From the NCBI RefSeq assembly GCF_013391475.1, contig NZ_JACBAZ010000002.1:897837-961836 (forward strand): a stretch of 64,000 bases of DNA, given 5' to 3'. The position numbers and the translations under genes were made by a program. The notes below the pieces were generated by a model. The model did not search any database. It was not told where the DNA came from and worked only from the letters and a program-made list of their open reading frames with translations. Positions 9,591-64,000 of this stretch are shown one piece after another. This DNA is from Oceaniferula marina (GTDB lineage Bacteria > Verrucomicrobiota > Verrucomicrobiia > Verrucomicrobiales > Akkermansiaceae). Numbering within the stretch: position 1 is the stretch's first letter; every line of letters starts with the position of its first letter.

Positions 9591-10253
9591 CTATCTGCGA
9601 CGTTTTAGCAGGATCAGGCTGGTAAGTCCCAATAGGCTTAACGAACTGGGTTCGGGGACGGCGGTGCCTTCGATGCTGATTTCCGTTAGGCCGAATTTAT
9701 CACCTCCATTGGAGTCGCCATCGAAATCAAATTTGACGTATCGGGCTTGTTGGTTGACGACTTCAGTGTGATTGACATCTCCGGTGGTGAAAGCAAACCC
9801 AGTGATCACGGGAGTAGGTGTCGTGAAGGTGATGTTGTCCGTACTGAATGAAAGATCGTAATCGTCCGGCGCTCCCAAAGCGAAGTCGGTGCGGACATAG
9901 CTGTTGATTTTGACGCTCGAGATATCAGCCAGAGATCCGAGGTCAAAGATAATGGTCACAGGGATGGGCGTGACGTTTACCGGATCCCAAGCGACAATGG
10001 GAGATCCTACAAATACGGGGTTGCCAGTTGTAAAAATTTCGCCGTCGTTGAGGTCGCCATTGTCATAGGCCCCAGGAGTGGTGTATCCGTCATGTTCCCC
10101 AGCAGTGGCATCATCGTCTCGATAATGCGTTCCCCCGCTGAATACGGGCATGGGAGAAGTGGTGTAGCTGTAGGTTCCCCCCAGAGCCAGGTTGGCGGCG
10201 TAGGCCGGAGTGAGGGAGGCGACGGCTAAGCAGGAAATAAGCAATGATTTCAT
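9591..10253 (-). CDS. PEP-CTERM exported protein with F5/8 type C-like fold
   Basis: A 220-residue protein with a signal peptide (MKSLLISCLAVASLTPAYA) and a C-terminal PEP-CTERM tail (VPEPSS, hydrophobic segment, KRRR). That tail directs sorting by an exosortase in exopolysaccharide-producing bacteria. The body resembles a discoidin/F5/8 type C carbohydrate-binding domain (FDLGSLADISSVKINSY, ARYVKFDFDGDSNGGDKFGLTEI). I start it at the ATG at 10253, which gives the signal peptide. The upstream DNA is very AT-rich (TATATAT tracts near 10290-10320) and probably contains the promoter. Confidence 0.82.
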   Translation of the reverse strand: MKSLLISCLAVASLTPAYAANLALGGTYSYTTSPMPVFSGGTHYRDDDATAGEHDGYTTPGAYDNGDLNDGEIFTTGNPVFVGSPIVAWDPVNVTPIPVTIIFDLGSLADISSVKINSYVRTDFALGAPDDYDLSFSTDNITFTTPTPVITGFAFTTGDVNHTEVVNQQARYVKFDFDGDSNGGDKFGLTEISIEGTAVPEPSSLSLLGLTSLILLKRRR

Positions 10254-10366
10254 ATGAGGGCGAATAGGTTTGATTTGAATATTTCTTATATATGAGAAGC
10301 GATATCGTAGCATATATATCAATCTATGGTGGGAGTTGTAAAGGTCATAATGGCCAGTGTTGAAAA

Positions 10367-10855
10367 CTATTCTCTGGATTCAACGATGAGGGTTCCTCGC
10401 CAGTCACGCCTCAGGGTGATGCTTTCACGAACGCGGTGCTTGGCGCTTTGTTGGCCGTATTCTATGATGAGTGATGCTCTGGTTCGGGAAATGTTCAATT
10501 CCTTGAACCTGAGTACGGGTTCGCGCCGTTCGCGTAGGAAGCAATAGAGTGGGATATCGCGTTGGTCGGCATTCCACAGGTAGGTGGACGGGGGGAAATC
10601 ATCTATGTCGGAGAGGGCAACCATGACCTCGCGGATTTCGGTTTCGTTGTTGTCTTTTAGCAGGCGTCTGGCCGCTGACTTACACCGCCAACTTTCGAGG
10701 TTGGCGCGTTTTGGGTGGCGACGGTCTTCTGCGATTTCTTGGAGGGCCAGTTGGAATTGAAGCTGCATTCCGGCCAACCACTGCGCACGGGTGATTTTAC
10801 CGGCCCGGTAATAGGCCAGAAGCCGTTTCGGGGAGATGAGGGAGCGGTTGGCCAT
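10367..10855 (-). CDS. Hypothetical protein, 162 residues
   Basis: I do not recognise this family. The protein is soluble, basic and rich in Arg, with no signal peptide or membrane segment. The N-terminal half is helical (LISPKRLLAYYRAGKITRAQW). The C-terminal half has alternating hydrophobic residues that suggest a small beta domain (ASLIIEYGQQ, TLIVESRE). The frame is intact over its length, begins with ATG, and codon usage looks like its neighbours, so it is probably a real gene. It is flanked by the PEP-CTERM gene downstream and a divergent epimerase gene. Confidence 0.65.
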   Translation of the reverse strand: MANRSLISPKRLLAYYRAGKITRAQWLAGMQLQFQLALQEIAEDRRHPKRANLESWRCKSAARRLLKDNNETEIREVMVALSDIDDFPPSTYLWNADQRDIPLYCFLRERREPVLRFKELNISRTRASLIIEYGQQSAKHRVRESITLRRDWRGTLIVESRE

Positions 10856-39433: not shown

Positions 39434-40909
39434 TCAGTTCCTTTTCTTGGAAAACGGTTTTTTATGATTCACCGGCGGGACGGGTAAATTGAATTGTTTC
39501 CAGAACATCAGGTGGAACGTATTGTGTCCTTCGAGCGGGGCATTTTCATTCACCATCAGGGGAACAGCCTTTTCCCACCACGCGTCATAGTAGGCTGTCA
39601 TTTTCTGCACAACTTCAGGGTGATTTTTGATCACATTCTTTTTCTGCAACGGATCTTTCTGAATGTCGTAAAGGTGCTTGCCGTCTACGAGTCTCCATTG
39701 CCCAGAGCGCAGTGCATAGCTTTTGTTTTTGGTGGGTTGCTGCTTATAGCCCCAGCGTCCTTTGTGGAAGACGGTGATGCGATCTGCCCAGTCAGCTTCG
39801 GGATTCTCCAGCAGGGGAAGAAAGCTGCGCCCGGCCAATTGTTTTTTTTCCTTGGGGGTGGCTCCTGTGATGGCTGCCAAGGTGGGTAAAATGTCATAGT
39901 GCCTCACTAGTTTTTGACAGCGTGTGTCCGCACTTATTTTTTTGGGCCAGCGAATAAAGAAGGGAACCCTCGTGCCACCCTCATCCACACTTCCTTTTTT
40001 ACCCTTCATTCCCGCATTCCAAGTATTGCCAGCACCGGTAGGACCGTTGTCCGACATAAAAATGAGAATGGTATCATCGGCGATCTTCCATTCTTCGAGT
40101 TGAGCCATCAAGGTTCCCATACGCTCGTCAATGTTAGCAATCATTCCATAGAAACCTTGCTGTTTTGCGTTGTATCCAGCTTTCGCAAAAGGCTTTTTAT
40201 AATGCTCGGGGCTGATGAACGGGCCGTGGGGAGCGTTCGTCGAAAGGTAGGTGAAAAACGGCTTTTTTTCATCTTTCATCTTCTTCATCCAGAGAATCGC
40301 CTGGTTGAAAAACAGGTCTGTGCAAAAGCCCTCTGTTTTGACGAAGGTATTATTGTGCAGGATGTAAGGGTTGAAATATTGATTTCCAGGAGCATCTCCA
40401 CAGGTCCCGCCGTAGCTCTGTCCTATGCCGCCGGCACCATGCATATAGACCTCATCAAATCCACGTTTGTCCGGGCGGTAAGCCGCTTCATCACCTAAGT
40501 GCCATTTGCCGAAGATCCCGGTATGGTAACCATTCTCCTTCAACATTTCAGCAAGTGTGGGAACATTCAATGCCATACGTTCGCGCTCTAGCACTGTGTG
40601 TGTGACCCCCACGTAAAAGGGATCGCGCCCCGACATAATGGCTGAACGAGTAGGTGCACATGTTGGGCTGGCATGAAAGCTCTCAAAGCTCATGCTTTCT
40701 GCGCGCAGTTGATCCAGATGGGGGGTCTTCAGAAGTGGGTGACCGTGAGCGCTTATATCTGCATACCCCTGATCATCGGTAATCACCAGGATGATATTGG
40801 GTTTTACCCCCTTCATGGGGGATGGCTCCGCATCGGCAGCCATACTGCTCAAGCTAAGGACGGCCGAGGTAACAGCCAGAAATGAGAAAAAAGGTTGGGT
40901 GTTCATCAT
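39434..40909 (-). CDS. S1-type sulfatase, exported
   Basis: A 491-residue sulfatase with a signal peptide ending near MAADA. The Asp pair (ITDDQGYAD) and the formylglycine motif C84-A-P-T-R88 are present, followed by GKWHLGD, the metal-binding FMSDNGPTG and the closing DGKHLYDIQKDPLQ block. It should release sulfate from a sulfated glycan outside the cytoplasm. The start is one of several close ATGs (40906, 40909, 40918). No other polysaccharide gene is directly adjacent. Confidence 0.92.
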   Translation of the reverse strand: MMNTQPFFSFLAVTSAVLSLSSMAADAEPSPMKGVKPNIILVITDDQGYADISAHGHPLLKTPHLDQLRAESMSFESFHASPTCAPTRSAIMSGRDPFYVGVTHTVLERERMALNVPTLAEMLKENGYHTGIFGKWHLGDEAAYRPDKRGFDEVYMHGAGGIGQSYGGTCGDAPGNQYFNPYILHNNTFVKTEGFCTDLFFNQAILWMKKMKDEKKPFFTYLSTNAPHGPFISPEHYKKPFAKAGYNAKQQGFYGMIANIDERMGTLMAQLEEWKIADDTILIFMSDNGPTGAGNTWNAGMKGKKGSVDEGGTRVPFFIRWPKKISADTRCQKLVRHYDILPTLAAITGATPKEKKQLAGRSFLPLLENPEADWADRITVFHKGRWGYKQQPTKNKSYALRSGQWRLVDGKHLYDIQKDPLQKKNVIKNHPEVVQKMTAYYDAWWEKAVPLMVNENAPLEGHNTFHLMFWKQFNLPVPPVNHKKPFSKKRN

Positions 40910-50781: not shown

Positions 50782-51053
50782 CGTTTGTAGTCAAAACTTG
50801 CCATAGAAAATGAGCGAATCAAAGAAATCAAAATATGTTCGTTCGTAGGTTGAGATTGCATTTCAATTGCACGGAATCGTTTTCGAATAATGGGCAGGGG
50901 TAAGTTGAAGTAGCGGTTTCTATCGTCCATTATCAATGGATCTTGCACGAGAATGAGTTAGAAGGATTGTCTTGACGTGGTTGTTGATATTCTATGTAGT
51001 TCTAGCCGACTTTAATGGACTATATCAATCCCTCTCGTTCGAACAGATCCACT

Positions 51054-54000
51054 ATGAAAAAAATACAACTCTCACCCTTCTTCAATCAGCCACGTAGGCC
51101 ACGGATTTGGATTCTGTCCAGCGCGTCGCTTGTTCTTTCAATGGGAATGAGTCTTGCCGCAGACGTCGTCAAGGATGGAGCTGGAACAGATCTTAATGCC
51201 GGAGTTAGCTGGAGCGGCACGGCTCCCGGATCAGATGATATCGCTACTTGGCAGACTGGGTCTTTGGGGGCTGGCCTGACGATCGGTTCGAATGTCTCAT
51301 GGTCTGGTATCAAGGTGGCCGATGCTCTTTCGGATATTGATGTAACCGGAGCAGGGGCTCTTACCATCGGTTCAGATGGCATTGAGATGTCGGCAGCGGC
51401 ACTCAATATGTCCCTGGCAACCAATGTGGTGTTGGGGGCTGATCAAGATTGGGCTGTGGGAGACGGTCAGCAGCTCACGGTTTCCGGTCAGGTATCAGGG
51501 GCTCATGTGTTAACCATTAATGGAGCCTATGATACGACGACTTTTAATTCTACGTTGACCTCGACACCCCAATTGATATGGGCGGGAAAAACCTTGTCTG
51601 ATATTGATGCCGCGGGTGGCATGTTGGGAGGTCCATCCATCAATTCAGGAACTCCTCTGACAGGGTCAGCCGAGTTATTTACACCGGGCGTCTCTACTAC
51701 GTATCAGCTACAGGTCCATGACGATGTTTGGCTGAAAGGTGTGGGTGTGGAATTGACCCAGGTCGGTGATGATATTTATGCTCAGGCGAATTGGGCAAGG
51801 TACAAGCCTGACTCAAACTTGCTTGGGACGGATCTCAGTGACGGGAATAACTCAAGTTATTTGGCGGTTGAAACGACGCTTGAGATGAACTCAACCTCAA
51901 AGGGGGATGTTTTATTCAATCGGAGTGGTGGCAATGGAGGGACGATTGGAGGTCTGAGTATTAATGCCGGAACGGTTGAATTGGATGGAGGGAACATAGG
52001 TTATGCGAGCTCAGGAGGTTATTTTTCGGGAGCGGCGATTGAAGTAAGCGATCATGGTGTGCTCAAGTTGACAGGAGCTTTTAATGCGGGCTATTCAACC
52101 GATATGACGGTGAATGGTGGAGAGCTTCAAATTGTTGGGGATCAGTATATCAATAACCTTACATTAAAAAATGGGGGTGAAGTGACGGGTGGTGATTTCC
52201 GCATGGGTTTTCATAGCCATGCGGTATTGAGTGTAGAAGGCACCAGCGCCTCGACGATTACGTCGAAAGTCACTTTGGTGAGGAATGCTGGCACTGGGGA
52301 TACGGTGACGTTCGATGTGGCAGATGTGGATGGTGGCAGTGGGGTCGACCTGAATGTTTCCGGAGGAATCGGGGATTTGGGTGGTTATGCTGGCAGCAGC
52401 TTGATTAAGACGGGTGACGGAACACTGCTTTTGTCGGGGAATGATGCGACTTATGGAGGTGATACCATCATTAATGGCGGGGTGTTTGCCATGAGTAAAA
52501 AACTGAATGCAGGATCGGAGGTGCACATTAATGCCGGTGCCACCATGGAGTTACGTGCTACCAATATCTTCCTTCGCAACAGTTCAAGCGCTGCTGTGAT
52601 TATTGACAGTGGCACGCTTACAATGAGTAACGGTAATCACAATAAGTTTGGGGACATGAGCTTGCTCAGTGGAGCCACTTGGACAACTGAGGCCTCATCT
52701 GGTTCATACGCAGGTGAAAACTTTGTTATCCGTCCTAACTCAACAATCACAGTAGGAGGAACAGGAGCATCAACAATGAGCGCTAAAGACGGTGTTGCCC
52801 TAGAAAGCGGCATCATTACCTTCGATGTCGCTGATGCAAGTGGTGACTCCGCGGGAGATTTGATCGTCAACACCGAGTTGGAGAACGGTGGAGGCGTAAC
52901 CAAAACGGGGCTGGGAACCATGGAGCTTCAGAAGGCTAGCACTTACACAGGCGGGACGGTCATCAATGAGGGCACTATCAGTCTTGGTAATGGCGGTACC
53001 GCAGGTAGCGTGGTAGGGGCAATTATCAATAATAGCGCCTTAGTTGTGAACCGGTCCAATACGATCACACTCGCTAATGATATCAGTGGATCAGGAACGC
53101 TGACTTTATTAGGGAACGGAACCAATGGCTCTCATGTGAATCTAACTGGAGATAATAGTGGCTTTGCCGGGAATACGACGATTGATGGAGCCCGGGCTAA
53201 TGTGGATATGAGCGGCGGGAACCGTGTTGGTTCTGGCTCTGTAACGGTTGCCGATGGCGGACAGCTGTGGCTGACAGGAGGGGCCCTGAGTAACGCAGTG
53301 ACATTGAACGGAGAGGGGGTCACCGAAGCCGCGGGTCAACTCGGAGCTGTACGCTTTAGTAATGACTCGAACATAAGTGGGGCGGTTACTTTGGCTGGCG
53401 ATAGTCGTCTGACTCCTCATAGTTCGTCGGATACAGGAACTGTGAGTGGGGTGATCAGTGGTGATTATGGAATTGAAAAAACAGGATCAGGCACGTTGAA
53501 TTTAACGAATGCGAACACGTATACCGGAGATACTCATATCAAAGCGGGATCGCTCGTTCTCGGAGCGAGTGGTTCGATTGCGAGTTCACCAACGATCGCC
53601 ATCGATAGTGGAGCGGAATTTGATGTTTCAGCTGTTACAGACTTTTCACTTGGTGCTGGTCAGACTCTATCCGGATCGGGTGACATTGTGGGTGATGTCG
53701 GCGTAAGCGGAACCATTGCCCCAGGCATGAGCCCGGGCACGATGAGCTATGGCGGAGCACTGGTTCTCTTTGATGGCTCCACACTGGATATCGAATTGAA
53801 TGGAGCAGACAATACGACAGGAAGTTCGGTGAACGACCTGATAACGGTTGCTGGAAATCTCGAGTTTGAAGGTACGGTTAAGGTGGATGTCACTGAGTTG
53901 GCTGCATTCAATGCTGTGGCTAAGGATACACGGTGGGTCTTCATCACTTATGAAGGAGCCTTGGTAGGAGGTGAAAATCTGGTTCTGGGTGATCTTCCTT

Positions 54001-54152
54001 CATTGACCCTTGATCCGGCTGTATTGAATCCTCATTTTGCATTGGATACTAGCACCATGGGTGAAATTGCCTTGATTGCTGTCCCTGAGCCAAGCTCAGC
54101 TGCCTTACTCGCATTGGGAGGTCTGGCCCTCACCCTGCGCCGCAGAAAGTAG
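51054..54152 (+). CDS. Autotransporter-repeat PEP-CTERM exported protein
   Basis: A 1032-residue secreted protein with an N-terminal signal sequence (ending near LAAD). The body consists of beta-helix repeats of the autotransporter-associated type, each with a core like TGxGTLxLSGxNTYTGxTxIxxGxLxLG. Clear copies are near residues 460, 620, 690 and 810-870. It ends with a VPEPSS...LRRRK PEP-CTERM tail rather than a barrel domain, so export and sorting differ from classical autotransporters. It is probably a large surface fibre or adhesin. The ATG at 51054 starts the signal peptide. It is followed by a terminator. Confidence 0.9.
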   Translation: MKKIQLSPFFNQPRRPRIWILSSASLVLSMGMSLAADVVKDGAGTDLNAGVSWSGTAPGSDDIATWQTGSLGAGLTIGSNVSWSGIKVADALSDIDVTGAGALTIGSDGIEMSAAALNMSLATNVVLGADQDWAVGDGQQLTVSGQVSGAHVLTINGAYDTTTFNSTLTSTPQLIWAGKTLSDIDAAGGMLGGPSINSGTPLTGSAELFTPGVSTTYQLQVHDDVWLKGVGVELTQVGDDIYAQANWARYKPDSNLLGTDLSDGNNSSYLAVETTLEMNSTSKGDVLFNRSGGNGGTIGGLSINAGTVELDGGNIGYASSGGYFSGAAIEVSDHGVLKLTGAFNAGYSTDMTVNGGELQIVGDQYINNLTLKNGGEVTGGDFRMGFHSHAVLSVEGTSASTITSKVTLVRNAGTGDTVTFDVADVDGGSGVDLNVSGGIGDLGGYAGSSLIKTGDGTLLLSGNDATYGGDTIINGGVFAMSKKLNAGSEVHINAGATMELRATNIFLRNSSSAAVIIDSGTLTMSNGNHNKFGDMSLLSGATWTTEASSGSYAGENFVIRPNSTITVGGTGASTMSAKDGVALESGIITFDVADASGDSAGDLIVNTELENGGGVTKTGLGTMELQKASTYTGGTVINEGTISLGNGGTAGSVVGAIINNSALVVNRSNTITLANDISGSGTLTLLGNGTNGSHVNLTGDNSGFAGNTTIDGARANVDMSGGNRVGSGSVTVADGGQLWLTGGALSNAVTLNGEGVTEAAGQLGAVRFSNDSNISGAVTLAGDSRLTPHSSSDTGTVSGVISGDYGIEKTGSGTLNLTNANTYTGDTHIKAGSLVLGASGSIASSPTIAIDSGAEFDVSAVTDFSLGAGQTLSGSGDIVGDVGVSGTIAPGMSPGTMSYGGALVLFDGSTLDIELNGADNTTGSSVNDLITVAGNLEFEGTVKVDVTELAAFNAVAKDTRWVFITYEGALVGGENLVLGDLPSLTLDPAVLNPHFALDTSTMGEIALIAVPEPSSAALLALGGLALTLRRRK

Positions 54153-56187: not shown

Positions 56188-56354
56188 GGGGGGGTGCTAA
56201 GTGGAAATTGGGGCTTTGTCAACCCTATGAGCGAGGCTTTGTGACTGAGGCTGAATCGGTAATAGACCGCTGAGGATTAGTTGATTGTGGTTGGTCTGCT
56301 TGGTGACCTTGCGATTTTGACGGGAGAATACGAAATCATATGAGTTCACGCAAA

Positions 56355-56450
56355 GACTCCAAGACTCCAAGACTCCAAGACGCCAAGACGCCAAGACGCC
56401 AAGACGCCAAGACTCCAAGACTCCAAGACTCCAAGACTCCAAGACTCCAA
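56355..56450. repeat. Octamer tandem array, 12 units
   Basis: Twelve perfect 8-bp units over 96 bp in a block pattern: three GACTCCAA, four GACGCCAA, five GACTCCAA. It lies between the ABC-F gene start and the end of kduD. Frames through it encode only low-complexity sequence and are not real genes. It is not CRISPR-like, as there are no spacers. Confidence 0.95.
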
Positions 56451-56552
56451 GACTTGTGTTTAGAACCCAGGCAAGGCTCAGGTTTTTTCAACCTAGGGTT
56501 TTGCTTAAGTGAACGCTGGTTGAAGGAGGTCCTATGATTCCGCCATTCCTCA

Positions 56553-57314
56553 TCAGCGCGCCATCCAGCCTCCGTCGACGACGAGGATTTCTCCATTGAC
56601 GTAGTTGGCTGCCTCCGAAGCTAAAAACACAGCAGGACCGACAAAGTCCTCGGGTTTACCCCAACGCCCGGCAGGGATGCGGGAGAGGATTTGTTCAGAA
56701 CGGACCGGGTCCTCCTGAAGGGCCTGAGTGTTGTCGGTGGCGATGTAACCGGGAGCGATGGCATTGACGTTGATGCCTTTGCCAGCCCATTCGTTGGCAA
56801 GGGCTTTGGTCAGTTGGCCAATGCCTCCTTTGGAGGCTGCGTAGCCGGGCACGGTGATCCCCCCTTGGAAGGTGAGCAGGGAGGCAGTGAAGATGATTTT
56901 TCCACTGCCGCGCTGGATCATGGCGGCCCCGAATTCACGGCTGATGACAAACTGGGCGTTGAGATTGACCTCAATGACTTGGTCCCAGAAATCGTCCGGG
57001 TGTTCGGCAGCGGGTGCGCGCATGATGGTTCCTGCATTGTTGACCAGGATGTCAGGAGCTCCGTGTTCTTTGAGGACTTGTGCGGTGAACGCCTTGACGG
57101 CAGCGCGATCGGAAAAATCGCAGGTATAAGCGGTGAAGGTACGACCCAGATCAGTCACTGCCTTTTCCACGGCACTACCGTCTTTTTCAAGACTGGCAGA
57201 GACACCGATGATGTTGGCTCCGGCTTCGGCGAGCCCTTTGGCCATAGCCATGCCGATGCCTCGTTTGCAACCGGTGACGAGGGCGGTTTTTCCTTCCAGA
57301 TTAAATAGCTTCAT
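56553..57314 (-). CDS. kduD: 2-dehydro-3-deoxy-D-gluconate 5-dehydrogenase (SDR)
   Basis: A 253-residue short-chain dehydrogenase. The cofactor motif is TGCKRGIG (T14, G15), NNAG follows at ~92-95, and the catalytic set is S145, Y158 and K162. The N-terminus FNLEGKTALVTG and the C-terminus GEILVVDGGWMAR match KduD, which interconverts 2,5-diketo-3-deoxygluconate and 2-keto-3-deoxygluconate in uronate catabolism. It lies 18 bp downstream of kduI, which supports the assignment. It is the last gene of the operon and is followed by the octamer array. Confidence 0.92.
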   Translation of the reverse strand: MKLFNLEGKTALVTGCKRGIGMAMAKGLAEAGANIIGVSASLEKDGSAVEKAVTDLGRTFTAYTCDFSDRAAVKAFTAQVLKEHGAPDILVNNAGTIMRAPAAEHPDDFWDQVIEVNLNAQFVISREFGAAMIQRGSGKIIFTASLLTFQGGITVPGYAASKGGIGQLTKALANEWAGKGINVNAIAPGYIATDNTQALQEDPVRSEQILSRIPAGRWGKPEDFVGPAVFLASEAANYVNGEILVVDGGWMAR

Positions 57315-57332
57315 GACTCTAGGATATTGAAA

Positions 57333-58163
57333 TTAACGAAGCTCGGTGATGGCAAATCCGTCCATGTCGTCGAAGCGTTGGTTTTCTCCACCCATGCCCC
57401 AGGCAAACGAGTAGGAGCCGGTGCCGGCACCACTATGGATCGACCAGGATGGGGAGAGCACGGCATGTTTTTCCTGCATCCAAAGCACTCTGGTTTCTTG
57501 AGGTTTACCCATGAAGTGTGCCACTTGGTGGTTTTCGGCGATGTCAAAGTAGCAGTAAACTTCTGAGCGGCGGTCGTGGGTGTGTGGCGGCATGGTGTTC
57601 CAGACGCTTCCGGATTGCAGCACGGTGAAGCCCATGACAAGCTGGCAGGATTGGAGACCGTTTTCGTGGATGTATTGGTAGAGGTGGCGTTCGTTGGATT
57701 CTTCGGGCGAGCCGAGCTCGAGTTTGTTGGCATCCTCGATTTTTGCGTGGGCGGTCGGGTAGCTGGTATGTGCTGGGTAACTGAGAAGGTAAAACTGTGC
57801 TGGTGCTTCGCCATTTTCCGATTGGAAGCTGATCGTTTGACTTCCTTTGCCGACGTAGAGGCATTCCAGTTTTTCGAGTGGGTAGCTGGTTCCATCGACG
57901 GTGATCGATCCCTTGTTGCCGAAGTTGATAACGCCGAGTTCACGTCTTTGACAAAAATAGTCAGAGCGCAACTGGTCGCCAGCTTTCAAGGTCAGAGGTG
58001 TGTCCGTGGGAACGGCCGAGCCGACGATGGCACGGTCCAGATCAGTGTAAACGAGTTGGAGCTCATTGATGTTGAACAAATCTTCGAGGATGTAGGAGTC
58101 GCGGAGTTGCTGGGTATCAGCATGGCGCATGGCGTCGAAGCAGCGGGTGGTGTGGCTATTCAT
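57333..58163 (-). CDS. kduI: 5-keto-4-deoxyuronate isomerase
   Basis: A 276-residue KduI-family isomerase that converts 4-deoxy-5-ketouronate, the product released from unsaturated uronates, to 2,5-diketo-3-deoxygluconate. The cupin metal site is visible: H194 and H196 (PPHTH), E201 and H243, at positions close to those in E. coli KduI. Length is normal. It starts 40 bp after the GH105 gene and ends 18 bp before kduD, so the three form one operon. Confidence 0.95.
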   Translation of the reverse strand: MNSHTTRCFDAMRHADTQQLRDSYILEDLFNINELQLVYTDLDRAIVGSAVPTDTPLTLKAGDQLRSDYFCQRRELGVINFGNKGSITVDGTSYPLEKLECLYVGKGSQTISFQSENGEAPAQFYLLSYPAHTSYPTAHAKIEDANKLELGSPEESNERHLYQYIHENGLQSCQLVMGFTVLQSGSVWNTMPPHTHDRRSEVYCYFDIAENHQVAHFMGKPQETRVLWMQEKHAVLSPSWSIHSGAGTGSYSFAWGMGGENQRFDDMDGFAITELR

Positions 58164-58203
58164 AATTAATGGGTTGTAAATGGTGTGTTGTCAGAGGTTC
58201 TGA

Positions 58204-60411
58204 TTACTGGACAAGGATGGGGTGCGTAATGGCGTGCGCCTGATGAAATAGATGGCGTTCAAAGCCTGCAGGATCGAGGCCTTCGGCTTTACCCCAGATC
58301 GCTCCGGCATGGAAGCTTACTGGCTTGTTCAGGTCCTTGGCCAGAATTTGTAGGATGTGATTTTTATTTTTGTAGGAGGGGCTCTTGCCGGTGCTGTGAA
58401 TGATAAAGGTGCCGATGTGCCCGTGATTCTCTTTTTCCATGATGGGGTCCCAGTATCCGAAGAAGTGTCCGCTATAGGCGCTGGCTTTCTGTTTCGGGCT
58501 GCGACGAGCGAGACCTGTGACAGGGCGGATCCCCTTGGCGTCGCCTTTGATTTGGAAGGAAGAGTTGACTTCAAAGTGGTGCTGACCACGTAACATGGTA
58601 ATCGTGCGTGTTTCGGTAATTTCAGTTTCGCCGATTTGAATGGCAGGGTAGGTGAGTTTGAATTTTAGACGCACCGGGCCTTGCTCGATCGTTGTCTGTT
58701 TGGCAAACACGGGACTGGTATGGAGTTTGCCTTTGCTGTCGAGATAGCCGACGCCTCCGCAGCCAAGTGAACTCCCGACCTTATAGCCGTCGAGTCCGGT
58801 GCCGTTGTCGGTGTGGTAGTGGGCGTCACCTTTGGCATACCATTCGTTGGCCACCGGACGACGAACGGATTTGGTCCAGACATCAATGCCACCACGGGCA
58901 TTTTCTGCGGCGAGTGCCGGCCCGTATGCTCGGTAGGCGATGCGGTCATTTTCCCAGACAAAGTCATCTTTACGTTCGGGAACAAAGCGGGCGAGCATCG
59001 GGTTCTGCTCGAGGCGGGGTTTGAGTTTTCCACATGCGAGGATTTGGAAAGTTCGTTTTTCGTTAGGGGTGAAATCGCTGATGAAAAGCAGGGCGTCTGG
59101 GCTTCCGTCCTGATTATTGTCCACCACCTGACAAGGCAGGAAATAGCTACTGACGCTGTCCCGGACGGCGATGTTCTCAGCGTTTGCCTTGGGCACCAGT
59201 GTGGTGATTTTTTTCCATGGTACGCTGACAACTTCATTGAGTCGGACATCCTTGTCCGGGTTTTGAGCTTGAAGCTTGGCGGTGCTGGATTGTTTGAGAA
59301 TCAGGTGTTTGTGCAGTTCATGCGCCACTTGTAAAAAGCCTCCAACACCGTAAACCGCAGTTTGTTCATAGCTGACGGTTCGCGGGTCTTGGCCGATCGG
59401 TTGAACAAAGCCAAGCTTGCCATCGGGGTGGACATTTTGCACGAGGCGTTTCCAGCCTTTGACAACTGCCGGGAGGTAGGTCTTTTCGTCAAGGAAGCCG
59501 TTGTTCACTCCCCAGATAAAACCATAGGTAAAAAAGGCAGTTCCGGAGGACTCCGGGCTCGGGTAACTTGCGGGGTCTAACAGCGATGCTCGCCAAGACC
59601 CGTCGGCTTGCTGGATGGCTTTGAGTTTCGCTGCCATTTGCTTGAATTGTTCGATATACTTGGGGCGTGTCGGGTGATCATGGGGGAGGTATTGCAAAAC
59701 GTGGCAGAGTCCGGCAAAGACCCATCCGTTGCCGCGTGACCAGAAGACTTTTTCTCCATTTTTTTCACGAGGTTCAAAGTACTTGGAATCGCGGAAGTAG
59801 AGTTGGCTCTCCTTGTCGTAGAGGTAGTCCGAGGTTTTCCACCAGAGTTCATCGAGTTTTTCGAGGTAGAGCTCATTACCTGTTGCCGCGTAGAGCATGG
59901 TGAGGGTTGGCGGAGACATATACAGAGCGTCGCACCAGGCCCATTCCCGCATATGGATGTGGTTGACCCAGAGTAAGGACTCATCGTGGGGTCGGTCTGC
60001 GAAGCGGAGCATGCCACGGCGTGTGGGCTCGAGCTGATGTGTCAGTTCGTCCCGGAGGTAGTGCCAGAGGTGGAGTTGGCCGACACAGTGGTCGTCACCA
60101 AAGTGGGGGCGGGGTCCGAGCTGGTAGTTGAGGTCGGCAGACACCTTGAGAAGCGCTTCACGGTATTTTTGGGCACCCGTTGTTTGGGCGTGGGCGAGCA
60201 GTCCGGTCCAGAGTGCTCCCTCGGTCCAGTCCCAGTCGGCTCGCTCGTAGGGGTTGGCGAGCTGCCAGTCGGCTACGGCACTGGCAACTTTCACAATCGT
60301 CTCAGGCTGGAGCTCGTCGGAGAAGGCAGGCTGAGGCGTAATTTCGGCCCATGCAGTGATGCTTGTACAGGTAGCTGCAATGATCGTGGTGAGTGTCTTG
60401 GGTGGTTTCAT
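58204..60411 (-). CDS. GH105-type unsaturated glucuronyl hydrolase fused to DUF4861
   Basis: A 735-residue exported protein with a signal peptide (MKPPKTLTTIIAATCTSITAWA). Residues ~35-390 form an alpha/alpha barrel of the GH88/GH105 type, with GDDHCVGQ (D106/D107) and MREWAWCDALYMSPP (D161), the expected catalytic Asp region, plus FWSRGNGWVFAGL and SSGTAFFTYGFIWGVNNG. Residues ~410-735 match DUF4861, often found fused to or beside such hydrolases in uronate-degrading bacteria. It would remove the unsaturated uronate from lyase products, and the adjacent KduI and KduD process it. The exact oligosaccharide is not known. Confidence 0.88.
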   Translation of the reverse strand: MKPPKTLTTIIAATCTSITAWAEITPQPAFSDELQPETIVKVASAVADWQLANPYERADWDWTEGALWTGLLAHAQTTGAQKYREALLKVSADLNYQLGPRPHFGDDHCVGQLHLWHYLRDELTHQLEPTRRGMLRFADRPHDESLLWVNHIHMREWAWCDALYMSPPTLTMLYAATGNELYLEKLDELWWKTSDYLYDKESQLYFRDSKYFEPREKNGEKVFWSRGNGWVFAGLCHVLQYLPHDHPTRPKYIEQFKQMAAKLKAIQQADGSWRASLLDPASYPSPESSGTAFFTYGFIWGVNNGFLDEKTYLPAVVKGWKRLVQNVHPDGKLGFVQPIGQDPRTVSYEQTAVYGVGGFLQVAHELHKHLILKQSSTAKLQAQNPDKDVRLNEVVSVPWKKITTLVPKANAENIAVRDSVSSYFLPCQVVDNNQDGSPDALLFISDFTPNEKRTFQILACGKLKPRLEQNPMLARFVPERKDDFVWENDRIAYRAYGPALAAENARGGIDVWTKSVRRPVANEWYAKGDAHYHTDNGTGLDGYKVGSSLGCGGVGYLDSKGKLHTSPVFAKQTTIEQGPVRLKFKLTYPAIQIGETEITETRTITMLRGQHHFEVNSSFQIKGDAKGIRPVTGLARRSPKQKASAYSGHFFGYWDPIMEKENHGHIGTFIIHSTGKSPSYKNKNHILQILAKDLNKPVSFHAGAIWGKAEGLDPAGFERHLFHQAHAITHPILVQ

Positions 60412-60472
60412 CTGGATAAAATACTGTGTGAGATTTAGTAAGGTGAGTTGTCTGCTAATAGGGGGTGCCTAC

Positions 60473-60494
60473 GGCGAATGGGAGTTAATTCGCC
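60473..60494. repeat. GGCGAAT/ATTCGCC hairpin in the gap before the GH105 gene
   Basis: A 7-bp stem (GGCGAAT / ATTCGCC) with an 8-base loop, followed by CTACC. On the minus strand it begins GGTAGGGCG, like the hairpin at 6727. It sits in the 138-bp gap between the BNR-type gene and the GH105 gene and may influence mRNA stability inside the operon. Confidence 0.55.
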
Positions 60495-60549
60495 CTACCT
60501 GTGACTCATGGAAATGGGTAAGCGTGGTGAGGATGGTAAGGGTGGCTAG

Positions 60550-62811
60550 CTATTCCAAGAGTTGAATGTTGAGATGGTAAAAGCGTTTTGTTGAATCGTT
60601 CTGGTCGATAAGGGTCAGGGTTTTAGAGTTTTTGTCGAGTTGGAAGTTAGATGATTGTGAGGAGATCAAGGTGTAGGGTGAGCCATAGATACTCGCAGCT
60701 ACCTCGGTCCAATCGATGAGGTTGGTGCTTGTTTCCAAAATAGAGATCAGGGAGTGGCTTTCTGGGTGTGAAGGGAGAATAACATCACGGTTGCTTGTTG
60801 TGAGTAGTTGGTGTGGTTCCTGATGTTTGCTGGTGTGGATGTAGTATTCCAGCAGGTTGCTCAGACCGCTGTGGTTGTCATCATCGTCCGGTGATCCAGA
60901 GATGTTGTTTTGGGTTTTCCAATCGAGGTAGCTGGTTTGTTTGTCGCCAATTTTTGAGAGAATGCGCGTGTTGTAGTTGGTGTAAGTGGAATAGATACCT
61001 TTTAACCAGAGCAAGCTTTCACTACGTTGGTGGTTTTTGGGAACAAAGGGGCGGATGTTGTCCTCGCTGGAGTTTTGAGTGACGGACTCCCAGGAGAAGC
61101 TTAGGCCTCCATCGGTGGTGGTTCCTTTCCAAAGTTCGTAGCGTGAATCGGCGTTGAGCGGGACGTTGGTGGTGGAGCTTAGGTCAAAGGGAGAGGCGGC
61201 GTTACTGGAAATGTAAACGACGTTGGGACGTTCGGGGTCGATACAGATGCCGCCTGCATAGTCGTCTTCACGTTCATAGAGTGGTCGTCCCGCATGGGCG
61301 ATAAAGCGTTTTTGCCATTCGGTGCCGGTCCACCGGGCGTAGTAATAGTAAATTCGGTCATGTTGCCAACCCGAGCCAGTGACGTTGTCCTTTTGGACAG
61401 TAAATGTGATGACTGGATCATTGTTCTTTTGTTGCTGGATGTCCCAGGTCCAGGCGCGGCCGCCGGGGATCCATTGGTTCGGATCGGTCTGGGCATCGGC
61501 GCTGTATTGATAGACGATGGTGCCATGTTGGCCGCTTGGGATATCATGAATGATGGGTGAATCACTCAGGGCTTTGATCACAGTGCCGTCGGTGTGGCGG
61601 ATTTGACCTCCATGGATACGGGCGTGGTAGATTGAGTTGTTCTCATCCCTCGGGTGACCATCGGTATAAATGAAGTCGATGGCATTGGTGTTGTTTCCAG
61701 AATAGCGAACGTAGGGGCGGGTGCTGCCGTCACCGTTTTGGATGAGTACTTTGAGAGGTGTCCAATTGGTGCCGTTATCGCTGGAACTTGTCCAGTTAGG
61801 GTTCCATCCGGTGCCACGGGTGAAGGTGTAAAGCGTGTTGCTCTCTTCGCTCATGGCATAAGTGTTGGCATAGGAATGTTTGTAGTCGGTCCCGTGGGTT
61901 TGTTCGGTTCCCCAGTCGCTTAACTTGAGCGGGCTGTTGATGTCGGAAATACGGTAGAAGTAATGTTTGTCGGTGGAGTGGCGCGAGTACGAAGCAATCA
62001 GGTTGCCGTTCGGCAGTGCGTGCAGGGCGGGGTTGTTATGGTCGTCGCGTTCGGTGACGGAGCTGAGTTCGGCCTCGGAGTTGGTTCCGGTAGCGGGGTC
62101 GTGTCGGGTGACGGCGACCTTGCCGTTGCGTTTGACGTGGCCGACGTAGAGTTTGTCTTGGTGCCAGATGGCGCGCTCGTCATTGAACCAGGTCCAAACG
62201 CCGTCGCTGGTGATGAGTCCGGCTTCGGGTTCGGGGACAGTCACGGGAGTTCCATACGAGACGCCGTCGAACCAGCTGCGATTACTGGTGGTGGTTGCGT
62301 TGGTGTCGTCGATGTAGATTTGAATCTCTCCCGCAGCGTTGGCGTGGGTATTGGTGATGAATCCACGTAGTTGGTTACGGTTACTTCCGGAGACGCTGCT
62401 GAGTCCGAGGTTTTCGACGCCATTGGAGCTTGGTGTGAAGAGGTTGAGTGAGTCAGATGTCAGACCCGCTTGAAGTTGCCAGTTTGCATTGCTGGCACTT
62501 AAAAAATTGACGTAAACCGCGTATTCGGTGTTCGGGGTGAGACCGGTGATGGTGGTAACCAGCATGGCGGCATCGCCGTAACCGCCGGAAGCGCCATCTT
62601 TTTCATAGATGCCATTGTTGCCAGCGACGTCGAACCCAAAGCCTGCACGGAACCTCCAAAGCGCGTCACTTGTGGTGGCGGTAGTTGACCAAGGGTTAGG
62701 CGTTCCATCGATTGCCTGCGTATTGGAACTGTTGGCATCAACATAGGTTTGTGCGTTACCCGTGATGGGCAACAGTCCGAATAAGCTGAAGAACAAGGTA
62801 GTGGTTTTCAT
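60550..62811 (-). CDS. BNR_4 beta-propeller protein, ulvan lyase-like (PL24/PL25 type)
   Basis: A 753-residue exported protein with a signal peptide (MKTTTLFFSLFGLLPITGNA). Residues ~21-188 are a beta-sandwich similar to the neighbouring PEP-CTERM protein. After an internal VPEP (192-195) comes a BNR_4 propeller at ~200-640 (DGVWTWFNDERAIWHQDKLYVGHV). H258 (RDDHNNPALH) and H278 (YSRHS) are 20 residues apart, followed by Tyr residues at 314 and 318 and R332 in YTFTRG, an arrangement resembling propeller ulvan lyases. The C-terminal tail (SGLSNLLEYYI, ETSTNLIDWTEV) is the common verrucomicrobial type also seen at the start of the window. A role as a lyase for glucuronate-containing polysaccharides is inferred from these residues and the downstream genes. 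Confidence 0.75.
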   Translation of the reverse strand: MKTTTLFFSLFGLLPITGNAQTYVDANSSNTQAIDGTPNPWSTTATTSDALWRFRAGFGFDVAGNNGIYEKDGASGGYGDAAMLVTTITGLTPNTEYAVYVNFLSASNANWQLQAGLTSDSLNLFTPSSNGVENLGLSSVSGSNRNQLRGFITNTHANAAGEIQIYIDDTNATTTSNRSWFDGVSYGTPVTVPEPEAGLITSDGVWTWFNDERAIWHQDKLYVGHVKRNGKVAVTRHDPATGTNSEAELSSVTERDDHNNPALHALPNGNLIASYSRHSTDKHYFYRISDINSPLKLSDWGTEQTHGTDYKHSYANTYAMSEESNTLYTFTRGTGWNPNWTSSSDNGTNWTPLKVLIQNGDGSTRPYVRYSGNNTNAIDFIYTDGHPRDENNSIYHARIHGGQIRHTDGTVIKALSDSPIIHDIPSGQHGTIVYQYSADAQTDPNQWIPGGRAWTWDIQQQKNNDPVITFTVQKDNVTGSGWQHDRIYYYYARWTGTEWQKRFIAHAGRPLYEREDDYAGGICIDPERPNVVYISSNAASPFDLSSTTNVPLNADSRYELWKGTTTDGGLSFSWESVTQNSSEDNIRPFVPKNHQRSESLLWLKGIYSTYTNYNTRILSKIGDKQTSYLDWKTQNNISGSPDDDDNHSGLSNLLEYYIHTSKHQEPHQLLTTSNRDVILPSHPESHSLISILETSTNLIDWTEVAASIYGSPYTLISSQSSNFQLDKNSKTLTLIDQNDSTKRFYHLNIQLLE

Positions 62812-62831
62812 CGCAGGTTTACTGATTGTCT

Positions 62832-62864
62832 AAAAAAGGGTGCTGGCTATTCAGCCAACACCCT
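62832..62864 (-). terminator. Intrinsic terminator inside the uronate operon
   Basis: On the minus strand, GGGTGTTGGCT pairs with AGCCAGCACCC (one mismatch) around a 4-base loop and is followed by six T residues. It lies between the PEP-CTERM gene and the BNR-type gene, so partial read-through would set their relative expression. Confidence 0.85.
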
Positions 62865-62892
62865 AGAGAAGAATGACTCGGTTTCAAGGTGC

Positions 62893-63537
62893 CTACTTGC
62901 GGCGGCGCAGAATGAGCGATAGTCCGCCAAGTCCAATAAGCGCAGCCGAGCTGGGCTCTGGCACGGTTTGGTAGCCTACGCCATCGTACCAGGTGCGGTC
63001 GTCGTTACCTGGGTTGTCATCGATGTAGATGGCAAGTTCGCCTGATCCATCAACAGCCACGTTGCCTAAATCAATCATAAAGAGGCGTCGGTTGCCCTCC
63101 TCGACCATGACGGTTCCTGCAAAGTCAGAAGCCTGTGTTTGTGTTCCTTCATTCCACAAATATTCGCTTGTGTTTCCGGATGCTAAGCCTGCGGCGAAGT
63201 CCCATTGGTTGTTGCCTGTAGGGTCATTCCCGTCAACCCATCCAGCAACCCAGTAGAAGGCGTATGCGTTGTATGTGCCGGCCGTGAGTCCAGAAATGGT
63301 GGTGCGTAGTTCAGGAGAATCTTCATCAGCTCTGGATGTGTAGATTTCGCCGCCATTGCCAAATACCGTACGGCTTCCCCAATGGCCATCGGTATCGGCT
63401 CCTCCTATGGGAGCGAAGGCTGAGCCATCTCCGAAGGTGGTGTTTGCCGTTGTGGCATCTACGTAAGTGATCGCAGCGTGGCCCGTGGTTGCCGAGAGAG
63501 CAGCCGCGAGTAGGCTTGATGTTATGGTCTTTTTCAT
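62893..63537 (-). CDS. PEP-CTERM exported protein related to the lyase N-terminal domain
   Basis: A 214-residue protein with a signal peptide (MKKTITSSLLAAALSATTGHA), a beta-sandwich domain, and a PEP-CTERM tail (VPEPSS...LRRRK). Its body shares order and spacing of motifs with the first ~190 residues of the next gene: TYVDA near the start, TTISGLT/TTITGLT, ELAIYIDD/EIQIYIDD, and WYDGVGY/WFDGVSY at the end. It may be a sugar-binding surface protein working with the lyase. It is the first gene of the minus-strand operon and is followed by a terminator. Confidence 0.85.
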   Translation of the reverse strand: MKKTITSSLLAAALSATTGHAAITYVDATTANTTFGDGSAFAPIGGADTDGHWGSRTVFGNGGEIYTSRADEDSPELRTTISGLTAGTYNAYAFYWVAGWVDGNDPTGNNQWDFAAGLASGNTSEYLWNEGTQTQASDFAGTVMVEEGNRRLFMIDLGNVAVDGSGELAIYIDDNPGNDDRTWYDGVGYQTVPEPSSAALIGLGGLSLILRRRK

Positions 63538-63692
63538 ATTGTTGTATAGGTTGGATTAAGGGTTCTGCTGTTTTGCCAGACAGGCTGAATGGCCATGAGA
63601 ACAGCTGAAGCTTACAATGAACGTATTGGTTGATATAGTGTGAATGCGACATGTTGATTGACAAATTGGCTTTAAATTGGTATTTTTGCGGC
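63538..63692. promoter_or_regulatory. Divergent promoter region of the uronate operon and its PAS-protein gene
   Basis: About 155 bp between divergent starts. It is AT-rich toward the PAS-protein side. It should carry the promoter of the five-gene operon and that of the divergent gene, but no box can be assigned with confidence. Confidence 0.5.
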
Positions 63693-64000
63693 ATGATGGA
63701 CGATTTTAGGCATTTGTTCCCCAACGGCAGTTGTGATCCGGGCATCATTGGTCCGGCGTATCACTTGCTTGAAAAGATGAGTGGTATCCGATTTGTGCTG
63801 AAGGATCTGGAGGGACGTTATCTTTACGTGAACCGTTGTTGGTTGGAGACCAATGGACTGAAAGAATTGGGCCAGGTCGTAGGTAAAACGGCGGCTGATT
63901 TATTCCCGGTTTGGCGGGCCGGGCGTTATCTTCGTGAGGATCAACGTGTGATCACGGAAGGGATGATTTACGACTACGAAGAGTTTTTACTCAACTCGGA
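63693..64000 (+). CDS. PAS-domain protein, probable transcriptional regulator (3' partial)
   Basis: The frame from ATG 63693 runs off the window end after 102 codons. Residues ~20-100 match a PAS/PAS_4 domain (FVLKDLEGRYLYVNRCWLETNG, VVGKTAADLFPVWRAGRYLREDQRVI, YDYEEFL). In these bacteria such an N-terminal PAS domain frequently precedes an AraC-type helix-turn-helix, but that part is outside the window, so a histidine kinase is not excluded. Its divergent position makes it the likely regulator of the uronate operon. The second ATG, at 63696, is an alternative start. Confidence 0.75.
   Translation, partial: MMDDFRHLFPNGSCDPGIIGPAYHLLEKMSGIRFVLKDLEGRYLYVNRCWLETNGLKELGQVVGKTAADLFPVWRAGRYLREDQRVITEGMIYDYEEFLLNS

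Follow-up and report, generated by a model that had tools for sequence, protein, structure and literature searches.

The window analysed in this work, a 64,000-nucleotide stretch of the Oceaniferula marina genome (G000:C2:897837-961836; source genome 5.07 Mb in 88 contigs, 97% complete), has near its end five minus-strand genes that probably form a locus for the utilization of a polysaccharide containing 4-linked glucuronic (or iduronic) acid, in which a lyase, a GH105 hydrolase and the enzymes KduI and KduD would act in this order without a SusCD system. It is a known kind of locus, new in parts: a Verrucomicrobial uronate-polymer locus with an uncharacterised clade of propeller lyases, an enzyme-like DUF4861 domain and probable uptake through a tripartite ATP-independent periplasmic (TRAP) transporter. 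The designation uronate-polymer lyase locus is well supported; ulvan, the substrate proposed in an earlier sequence-only reading of this DNA, is a guess among several.

That reading had placed genes for a PEP-CTERM protein, a BNR_4 protein, a GH105/DUF4861 protein, KduI and KduD in this region. All five open reading frames (ORFs) were found there, each with an ATG start, and both coordinates and family matches agree with the proposal. The features of the region are:

56553..57314, minus strand: kduD, 2-dehydro-3-deoxy-D-gluconate 5-dehydrogenase, 253 aa (TIGR01832 as best NCBIfam match; short-chain dehydrogenase/reductase Pfam match)
57333..58163, minus strand: kduI, 5-dehydro-4-deoxy-D-glucuronate isomerase, 276 aa (NF002091)
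58204..60411, minus strand: two-domain GH105 unsaturated glucuronyl hydrolase with DUF4861, 735 aa, probably exported (PF07470, PF16153)
59308..60246, minus strand: GH105 domain of this protein, residues 56-368 (PF07470)
58210..59265, minus strand: DUF4861 domain of this protein, residues 383-734, possibly catalytic (PF16153, AlphaFold2 model)
60550..62811, minus strand: BNR_4 beta-propeller protein, predicted polysaccharide lyase, 753 aa (PF15892, AlphaFold2 model, structure matches)
60949..62220, minus strand: propeller domain, residues 198-621, with H258, H278, Y314, R332 and Y367 (AlphaFold2 model, alignment, structure matches)
62242..62754, minus strand: N-terminal beta domain of the predicted lyase, residues ~20-190 (homology to the PEP-CTERM protein)
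62827..62864, minus strand: terminator-like hairpin, 12-bp stem and T-run, between the PEP-CTERM and lyase genes (hairpin scan and folding)
62893..63537, minus strand: PEP-CTERM surface protein with a domain of the lyase N-terminal type, 214 aa (PF07589, TIGR02595)
63651..64000, plus strand: start of a putative divergent PAS-AraC regulator, 264 aa in full, ~445 bases of it beyond the window (PAS_4, HTH_18)

The five genes are separated by gaps of 18, 40, 138 and 81 bases, a spacing consistent with one operon, the hairpin between the PEP-CTERM and lyase genes excepted. The whole 5.07-Mb genome yielded two matches each for GH88/GH105, DUF4861 and BNR_4. Both sets are clustered: one is the five-gene locus, the other a single GH105-DUF4861-BNR_4 protein at G000:C2:195 kb (L014), located beside a sulfatase and an alpha-L-fucosidase-family protein with F5/8 domains. 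Since the genome has only two matches of each domain, the grouping of both trios is not attributable to chance.

From gene order, domain families, conserved residues, predicted folds and co-occurrence we infer the following activities, export, uptake and regulation. The exported BNR_4 propeller lyase would cut the chain by beta-elimination, using His/Tyr/Arg chemistry. The non-reducing end thus created would carry a 4,5-unsaturated uronic acid, whose removal would fall to the exported GH105 hydrolase, with the fused DUF4861 domain helping in some way. The freed 5-dehydro-4-deoxy-uronate would enter the cell, most likely through a TRAP transporter, and would be converted by KduI and KduD to 2-keto-3-deoxygluconate (KDG), from which a KDG-kinase-like protein and a 2-keto-3-deoxy-6-phosphogluconate (KDPG) aldolase, both encoded elsewhere, may produce pyruvate and glyceraldehyde-3-phosphate. 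The divergent PAS-AraC protein is the likely switch. The N termini of the GH105, BNR_4 and PEP-CTERM proteins resemble signal peptides when judged by eye. The outline from exported lyase-like protein through unsaturated glucuronyl hydrolase to KduI and KduD is that of the sequence-only reading, with which families, fold and conserved residues are in agreement.

The ulvan polysaccharide utilization locus of Formosa agariphila (Bacteroidota), as described in PMC8511951, likewise has a lyase followed by GH105 and the release of 5-dehydro-4-deoxy-glucuronate. Unlike that locus, the block described here has no SusCD, sulfatase, GH78 or GH3, includes KduI and KduD, and has a PEP-CTERM partner and probable TRAP uptake. 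No description of BNR_4 combined with GH105 and a lyase, or of Verrucomicrobial ulvan BNR proteins, was found in the open-licence PubMed Central (PMC) literature; some papers in it name both Verrucomicrobia and ulvan lyase, and a Verrucomicrobial ulvan lyase may already have been described.

The BNR_4 domain was recognised with 76.6 bits (PF15892; cut-off 27.3). The AlphaFold2 model of the protein, obtained from 34 aligned sequences, had a mean predicted local distance difference test score (pLDDT) of 82.2, the ten-residue blocks of residues 201-620 all averaging above 80 and mostly 90 or more. It is a seven-bladed beta-propeller. Comparison by VIA-align placed the PL42 structure 5mum at the top (Z 33.5, 368 residues, 3.3 Å), with further PL42 matches to 5mvh (Z 32.7), 4irt (32.5), 5muk (32.1) and FoRham1, 7esk (Z 31.1, 367 residues, 3.3 Å); the PL25 structure 5uam matched the predicted model with Z 33.1 (370 residues, 3.0 Å, 14% identity). 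PL24 structures gave Z 20-22 (Uly1: Z 21.9, 366 residues, 4.0 Å); none was among the 50 matches listed by Foldseek, whereas VIA-align shows them. Photorhabdus-type lectins share the fold with Z 25-26, and the propeller could be imagined as a non-catalytic, lectin-like sugar-binding protein accompanying GH105. This seems very improbable: the lyases score clearly higher (Z 31-33), and the catalytic residues are kept in nearly all members of the clade, the one clear loss being H258R in the second L009 copy.

Mutants of FoRham1 in His85, His105 and Tyr150 are nearly or wholly inactive, and Arg166 is the proposed neutraliser (PMC8377490). BT3686 variants H90A, Y143F and R333A and BACCELL00856 variant H90Q are inactive on wine arabinogalactan (PMC8406133), and His95 and Tyr160 mutants of a PL25 lyase are inactive as well (PMC13193363). 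In our alignments, His90, His110 and Tyr143 of BT3686 and His123, His143, Tyr188 and Arg204 of PL25 share one spacing pattern: a His with a second His 20 residues on, and a Tyr with an Arg 16 residues on, the BT3686 Arg being residue 159 by count. In the BNR_4 protein the two His are H258 and H278; Y314 and R332 follow, with two residues inserted relative to this pattern, and the equivalents of H85, H105, Y150, R166 and Y202 of FoRham1 are H258, H278, Y314, R332 and Y367. The catalytic residues expected from the lyase assignment are present, with H258, H278, Y314 and R332 near-invariant and in register with PL25 and BT3686.

Among clade homologues, H258 was conserved in 32/33, H278 in 32/33, Y314 in 33/33, R332 in 34/34 and Y367 in 33/34; the same columns of 45 other BNR_4 rows held the two His in 45 and 43, the Tyr in 44, the Arg in 38 and the second Tyr in 44. 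Seven rows have no Arg in the R332 column. In L134 and L135 it lies one position earlier, which is an alignment slip; L139, L142, L143, L147 and L151 seem to have no equivalent.

A phmmer search of solved structures with the lyase alone gave nothing up to E 1. The intermediate BNR_4 protein L138 matches 5muk at 2.7e-13 and 5uam at 1.3e-11, and is itself matched by the profile of the clade at 3.1e-17 (in a small ORF set). These significant steps connect the BNR_4 clade with PL42 and PL25 and so establish their homology.

A tree was constructed from 78 propeller domains, with no PL24 or PL25 reference rows; rows resembling L104 or L135, both of which match PL42 chains, were designated PL42-type. 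The wrong-frame ORFs L112, L114 and L119 were excluded from the tree and from the 45-row counts, and the short homologue L038 was kept out of the alignment. The query clade (33 rows) was monophyletic, with support 100/99. Its nearest neighbours were L140 and L143 together (97/61, weak), then L138, L142, L147 and L151. Profile-profile comparison of the clade gave 99.7% probability over 338 columns with the group of six neighbours and 96.5% over 253 columns with the PL42-type group.

The GH105 domain, judged good in the sequence-only reading, proved to be so: Glyco_hydro_88 (PF07470) gave 260.8 bits (cut-off 26.6), and the best solved relative was 4ce7, an unsaturated 3S-rhamnoglycuronyl hydrolase (1.2e-62 over residues 37-367). 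The segment WCDAL is aligned with 4ce7, and its Asp is presumably catalytic. An equal match was obtained with 5noa (1.3e-61), which is titled only 'Family 88 glycosyl hydrolase' and which we take to be an arabinogalactan-pathway enzyme. As the two matches tie, GH105 does not discriminate between ulvan and an arabinogalactan-type substrate.

The linkage attacked is likely to be Rha-(1,4)-GlcA (rhamnose to glucuronic acid), possibly sulfated, with ulvan as one candidate only. A locus specific for ulvan would have the propeller as an endo-acting ulvan lyase and GH105 acting on unsaturated GlcA-Rha3S. This fits the ulvan enzyme 4ce7 as best solved match of GH105, the PL25 ulvan lyase tying for best structural match, and the 145 sulfatase-domain matches in the 5.07-Mb genome (some of them two halves of one frame), a very high load. 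Characterised PL24, PL25 and PL42 enzymes cut the Rha-GlcA linkage, not all of them in ulvan, according to PMC8377490, PMC13193363 and PMC8406133. However, GH105 is matched just as well by 5noa, and the propeller by PL42 enzymes, whose activity is to remove rhamnose caps from arabinogalactans; the BNR_4 clade stands apart in the tree, the five-gene block has no sulfatase or rhamnosidase, and the second locus of the genome lies beside a fucosidase-family protein. We regard ulvan specificity as rather unlikely.

With the PL25 ulvan lyase PLSV_3936 (5UAM/5UAS) the BNR_4 protein shares the seven-bladed propeller and the succession of two His 20 residues apart, a Tyr and an Arg; it differs by a structural identity of 14%, the lack of a profile match, zinc ligands that are not evident and an extra accessory domain. 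With PL42 (formerly GH145; BT3686, FoRham1), an L-Rha-alpha-1,4-GlcA lyase family, it shares the fold (Z 31-33.5) and five catalytic-residue equivalents. It differs by its separate clade and by the motif 'RPY', which in the query clade replaces the 'NAY' of most PL42-type rows.

An exo-acting enzyme of the PL42 kind would remove terminal (sulfated) rhamnose from glucuronate in arabinogalactan-like or branched glycans, with GH105 then removing the exposed unsaturated glucuronate. B. plebeius pairs a GH145/PL42 lyase with GH105 for this purpose, as reported in PMC8406133, PL42 is among the tied top structural matches, and BNR_4-GH105 fusions occur outside the clade too, in the PL42-type rows L111 and L123. 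Such cap removal is nevertheless unlikely, since the clade is separate from PL42 and the sulfatase-rich genome points to sulfated polymers, in which such caps may be present or absent.

The lyase clade could also have drifted to another neighbour sugar, in a different sulfated glucuronate polymer such as an algal or diatom polysaccharide with fucose. Every clade member has R365, and none of the 45 other BNR_4 rows has Arg in this column; the triple fusion of the second locus is joined to a sulfatase and an alpha-L-fucosidase-family protein, and Akkermansiaceae and Puniceicoccaceae metagenome-assembled genomes (MAGs) are reported as fucose and rhamnose specialists in PMC8857213. Against this possibility, which we consider doubtful, stand the lack of a direct sequence marker of the neighbour sugar and of a fucosidase in the five-gene locus.

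KduI, the only match of its kind in the genome, passes its family threshold (NF002091, 405.2 bits; cut-off 250). The KduD product was assigned by its best match among 238 families and by gene context: since locus L027 has a KduD-like ORF (76% identity over 210 residues to the kduD product) beside KduI and a GH105-BNR_4 fusion, the assignment gains support, and KduD function can be proposed on this basis. For the subsequent steps the genome offers a PfkB kinase resembling KDG kinases, adjacent to a KDPG aldolase (TIGR01182, 235.6 bits; cut-off 156) at C1:931-933 kb.

The C-terminal half of the GH105 protein matches DUF4861 (PF16153) with 228.8 bits, over the cut-off, and the BT_3233 family NF058564 with 250.2 bits, under the cut-off of 320. 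In this genome the family occurs joined to GH105, and the second locus adds BNR_4 to the fusion. No mention of DUF4861 or of BT_3233/BT3233 was found in the open-licence PMC literature; the present locus offers a first functional lead for the domain, which occurs in 85 of 387 sampled genomes of the phylum (83 over the family cut-off).

A profile search of solved sequences with DUF4861 gave no match up to E 10. The AlphaFold2 model (pLDDT 91.4) is mostly beta; its best structural matches were GH38 mannosidases, in their beta part (Z up to 16.6), and PL26 (Z 15.1, 281-287 residues), and lower matches (Z 12-13) were to PL4, PL12 (heparan sulfate lyase) and a putative galactose mutarotase. The model has a beta fold of the galactose-mutarotase/lyase type. 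It is also matched by the YidC periplasmic domain (Z 12.5-13.4), which we take to be non-enzymatic. Among 37 DUF4861 sequences 15 columns were invariant, eight of them Arg, Glu, Asp, Lys or His (R105, E112, D114, R119, D135, K139, H158 and D166) and two Tyr. Because of these invariant charged residues, catalysis is in our judgement likelier than binding alone.

GH105 proteins have an alpha-toroid fold. PL40 and related lyases combine an alpha-toroid with an antiparallel beta domain (PMC12915356), and GH105 with DUF4861 would contain the same two ingredients, which is suggestive, no more. The domain was also considered as a P29_PDnc oligosaccharide dehydratase feeding GH105. This was rejected: Cdf79930, which appears to be P29 since PMC8511951 calls P29 an earlier-reported broad-spectrum ulvan lyase, is rich in alpha-helix with an (alpha/alpha)6 toroid, whereas the DUF4861 model is mostly beta.

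As had been noticed from the sequence, the five-gene block has no TonB/SusCD-type transporter. Six TonB-receptor domain matches were found in the genome, five of them over the cut-off, in frames of 414-744 aa, with no search for SusD made; SusC proteins are about 1000 aa long. As the monomer would be released outside the cytoplasm, SusCD would be unnecessary. The only TRAP transporter of the genome, which has a single DctM match, is a dctP-dctQ-dctM set located directly behind uxaC (glucuronate isomerase; 571.9 bits, cut-off 387) at G000:C2:876-881 kb, ~75 kb from the locus. Identity to the counterparts encoded within the lyase loci of relatives is 44-53% for its DctP and 53-65% for its DctM. 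Since relatives of two genera carry TRAP genes inside the locus, the freed uronate is probably taken up by this transporter.

Verrucomicrobiota are thought to handle recalcitrant sulfated algal glycans without SusCD; their MAGs are reported in PMC8857213 to be devoid of it, so that its absence here is usual for the group, and outer-membrane uptake is named there as a subject for future study. The loci presented there resemble the present one in that glycan genes of Akkermansiaceae and Puniceicoccaceae are co-located without SusCD. They differ in being fucosidase and sulfatase loci, and the main text of that article does not contain the terms lyase, PL24, PL25 or GH105. The locus described here offers a testable answer for uronates, namely release of the unsaturated uronate outside the cytoplasm followed by monomer uptake through TRAP.

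The surroundings of other clade members were analyzed in 29 stretches, which correspond to 25 of the 33 propeller places and 6 of the 7 loci of the first homologue set. Left out were G004, G087, G168, G076 and G023 and second copies in G383, G215 and G319; L012 (Persicirhabdus sediminis) is the same place as L053, from genome G378 of the same family. This species of the Verrucomicrobiota is placed in the Akkermansiaceae in GTDB and in the Verrucomicrobiaceae in NCBI taxonomy. Co-occurrence counts are lower bounds because the reach of the stretches was unequal (11.6 kb for L009, 2.9 kb for L023, 17-22.6 kb for the others).

GH105 was found in 13 of the 29 stretches and was fused to BNR_4 in eight, preceding it in L014, L023, L053, L055, L056 and L057 and following it in L063 and L064. 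DUF4861 occurred in eight (seven at full strength; in L023 the stretch scan detected the end only, and the phylum scan the whole domain in the same open frame), sulfatase in eight, kduI in six and TRAP genes in five. The genes around BNR_4 in L051 include one GH88-like and one KduD-like gene as well as a kinase and an aldolase. The fusion orders were GH105-DUF4861-BNR_4, DUF4861-GH105-BNR_4, GH105-BNR_4 and BNR_4-GH105. With L063 and L064 from genus g2, the genera that show linkage number two for TRAP genes and three for kduI, the genus of the present genome included.

The BNR_4-GH105 fusions of L063 (7540-10065) and L064 (8164-10611) are from small genomes (2.7 and 3.5 Mb) of the same family; these may belong to Akkermansia, which would place the module in a possible gut environment. 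At L055:9244-12975 two GH105 domains precede BNR_4, in a locus that also has DUF4861, kduI, another GH105-BNR_4 fusion and TRAP genes. A frame of 1148 aa at G215:C85:21075-24398 begins with a BNR_4 clade member and ends with DUF4861, leaving room for GH105 between them, and is a possible further fusion order.

The BNR_4 protein is a tractable candidate for a new lyase family. Taking the PL families up to PL42 for comparison, a wider proposal can be put forward tentatively: the clade may represent an additional family of polysaccharide lyases alongside PL24, PL25 and PL42, and DUF4861 a new carbohydrate-active catalytic domain acting on the same uronate, both forming with GH105 one module that is fused in at least four orders and coupled to TRAP monomer uptake instead of SusCD oligomer uptake. 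We regard this combination as possible rather than probable.

Several observations weigh against a uronate-polymer locus served by a propeller lyase. Searching solved chains up to E 10 with a profile of 34 clade homologues returned no PL24, PL25 or PL42 chain; the matches were sialidases and noise only (best E 0.0019; best stretch 31 residues). The PL42-type rows lie across a 99/89 branch from the query clade. A propeller outside the lyase clades, the outcome named beforehand as adverse to the lyase assignment, was found in part: the protein falls in a separate clade that excludes the PL42-type rows and has no PL24, PL25 or PL42 profile match. Four of the six nearest tree neighbours (L142, L143, L147 and L151) have no Arg in the R332 column and two have Arg in place of H278, so that either the residue set varies immediately beyond the clade or the alignment is displaced in these rows.

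The zinc ligands of PL25 (H208, H264, C266 and PL25 H278) are not evident either, at most one of the four being present: no His-x-Cys occurs at the place of H264/C266, W336 stands at Arg+4 where H208 was expected, and H386 may match PL25 H278. This comparison, made by eye through the intermediate (5uam with L138, L138 with the query), is of moderate certainty. Because it rests on the failed profile search and the missing zinc ligands, placement outside PL25 is weaker than the tree evidence.

Of the two Kdu assignments called firm in the sequence-only reading, that of KduI stands, but KduD, with 328.6 bits for TIGR01832, is ~10 bits short of the equivalog cut-off of 338.85; the PfkB kinase reaches no equivalog cut-off. 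The nearest sulfatase match in the window is ~16 kb from the five-gene block, and none is inside it. The TRAP genes are far from the locus here, and their substrate is inferred from their neighbours. Fifteen of the 29 stretches have no GH105 or GH88, so that the lyase is not always tied to GH105; in several of these the BNR_4 polypeptide itself carries the PEP-CTERM-protein domain, once to three times. Finally, L055, L056, L057 and L059, which provide four of the five TRAP and four of the six kduI stretches, belong to one genus (g77), which makes the co-occurrence less independent than the numbers imply.

The PEP-CTERM motif was recognised with 24.9 bits (PF07589; cut-off 20.7) and by TIGR02595, and the genome has one exosortase match. 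The N-terminal beta domain of the lyase shows 36% identity to the PEP-CTERM ORF, and several related BNR_4 proteins contain between one and three copies of it. A likely role for the PEP-CTERM protein, which has this accessory domain in common with the lyase, is that of a partner anchored at the surface.

The sequence between the two genes (62812-62892) folds at -26.2 kcal/mol (z -3.89), and none of 200 shuffles was as stable. Fourteen terminator-like sites were observed in the 8.5-kb stretch against 10.1 expected from shuffles, that at 62827-62864 having the longest stem. This hairpin suggests that the surface protein and the enzymes are expressed at different levels, so that the PEP-CTERM protein may be produced in surplus over, or separately from, the products of the four genes behind it. 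The divergent gene, available in full in L013, matched PAS_4 (37.7 bits) and HTH_18 (81.4 bits), which adds an AraC-type helix-turn-helix to the PAS protein previously named as probable regulator and makes it one of the PAS-AraC type.

A truncated third copy was detected at G000:C1:692 kb (L015:9321-9782, minus strand, and 9861-10607, minus strand). There an ORF of 153 aa corresponds to the first ~136 residues of the lyase (the accessory domain), with 65-70% identity, and adjoins a PEP-CTERM protein with the same domain; a response regulator and a sensor were also recognised by eye. Its appearance suggests a relative of the five-gene locus that has decayed or been rearranged.

No Rfam match at gathering scores was obtained in the 64-kb window, and ARAGORN detected no tRNA or tmRNA. 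Sulfatase matches in the window are located at 5313-6389 and 39863-40801. An 8-bp tandem repeat, AAGACTCC, is present at 56353-56454 (12.8 copies, 97% matches), ~100-200 bases downstream of kduD and before an ABC-F gene. Upstream of the ABC-F gene, at 51015-54152, is encoded a PEP-CTERM protein of 1045 aa with autotransporter-type PATR repeats.

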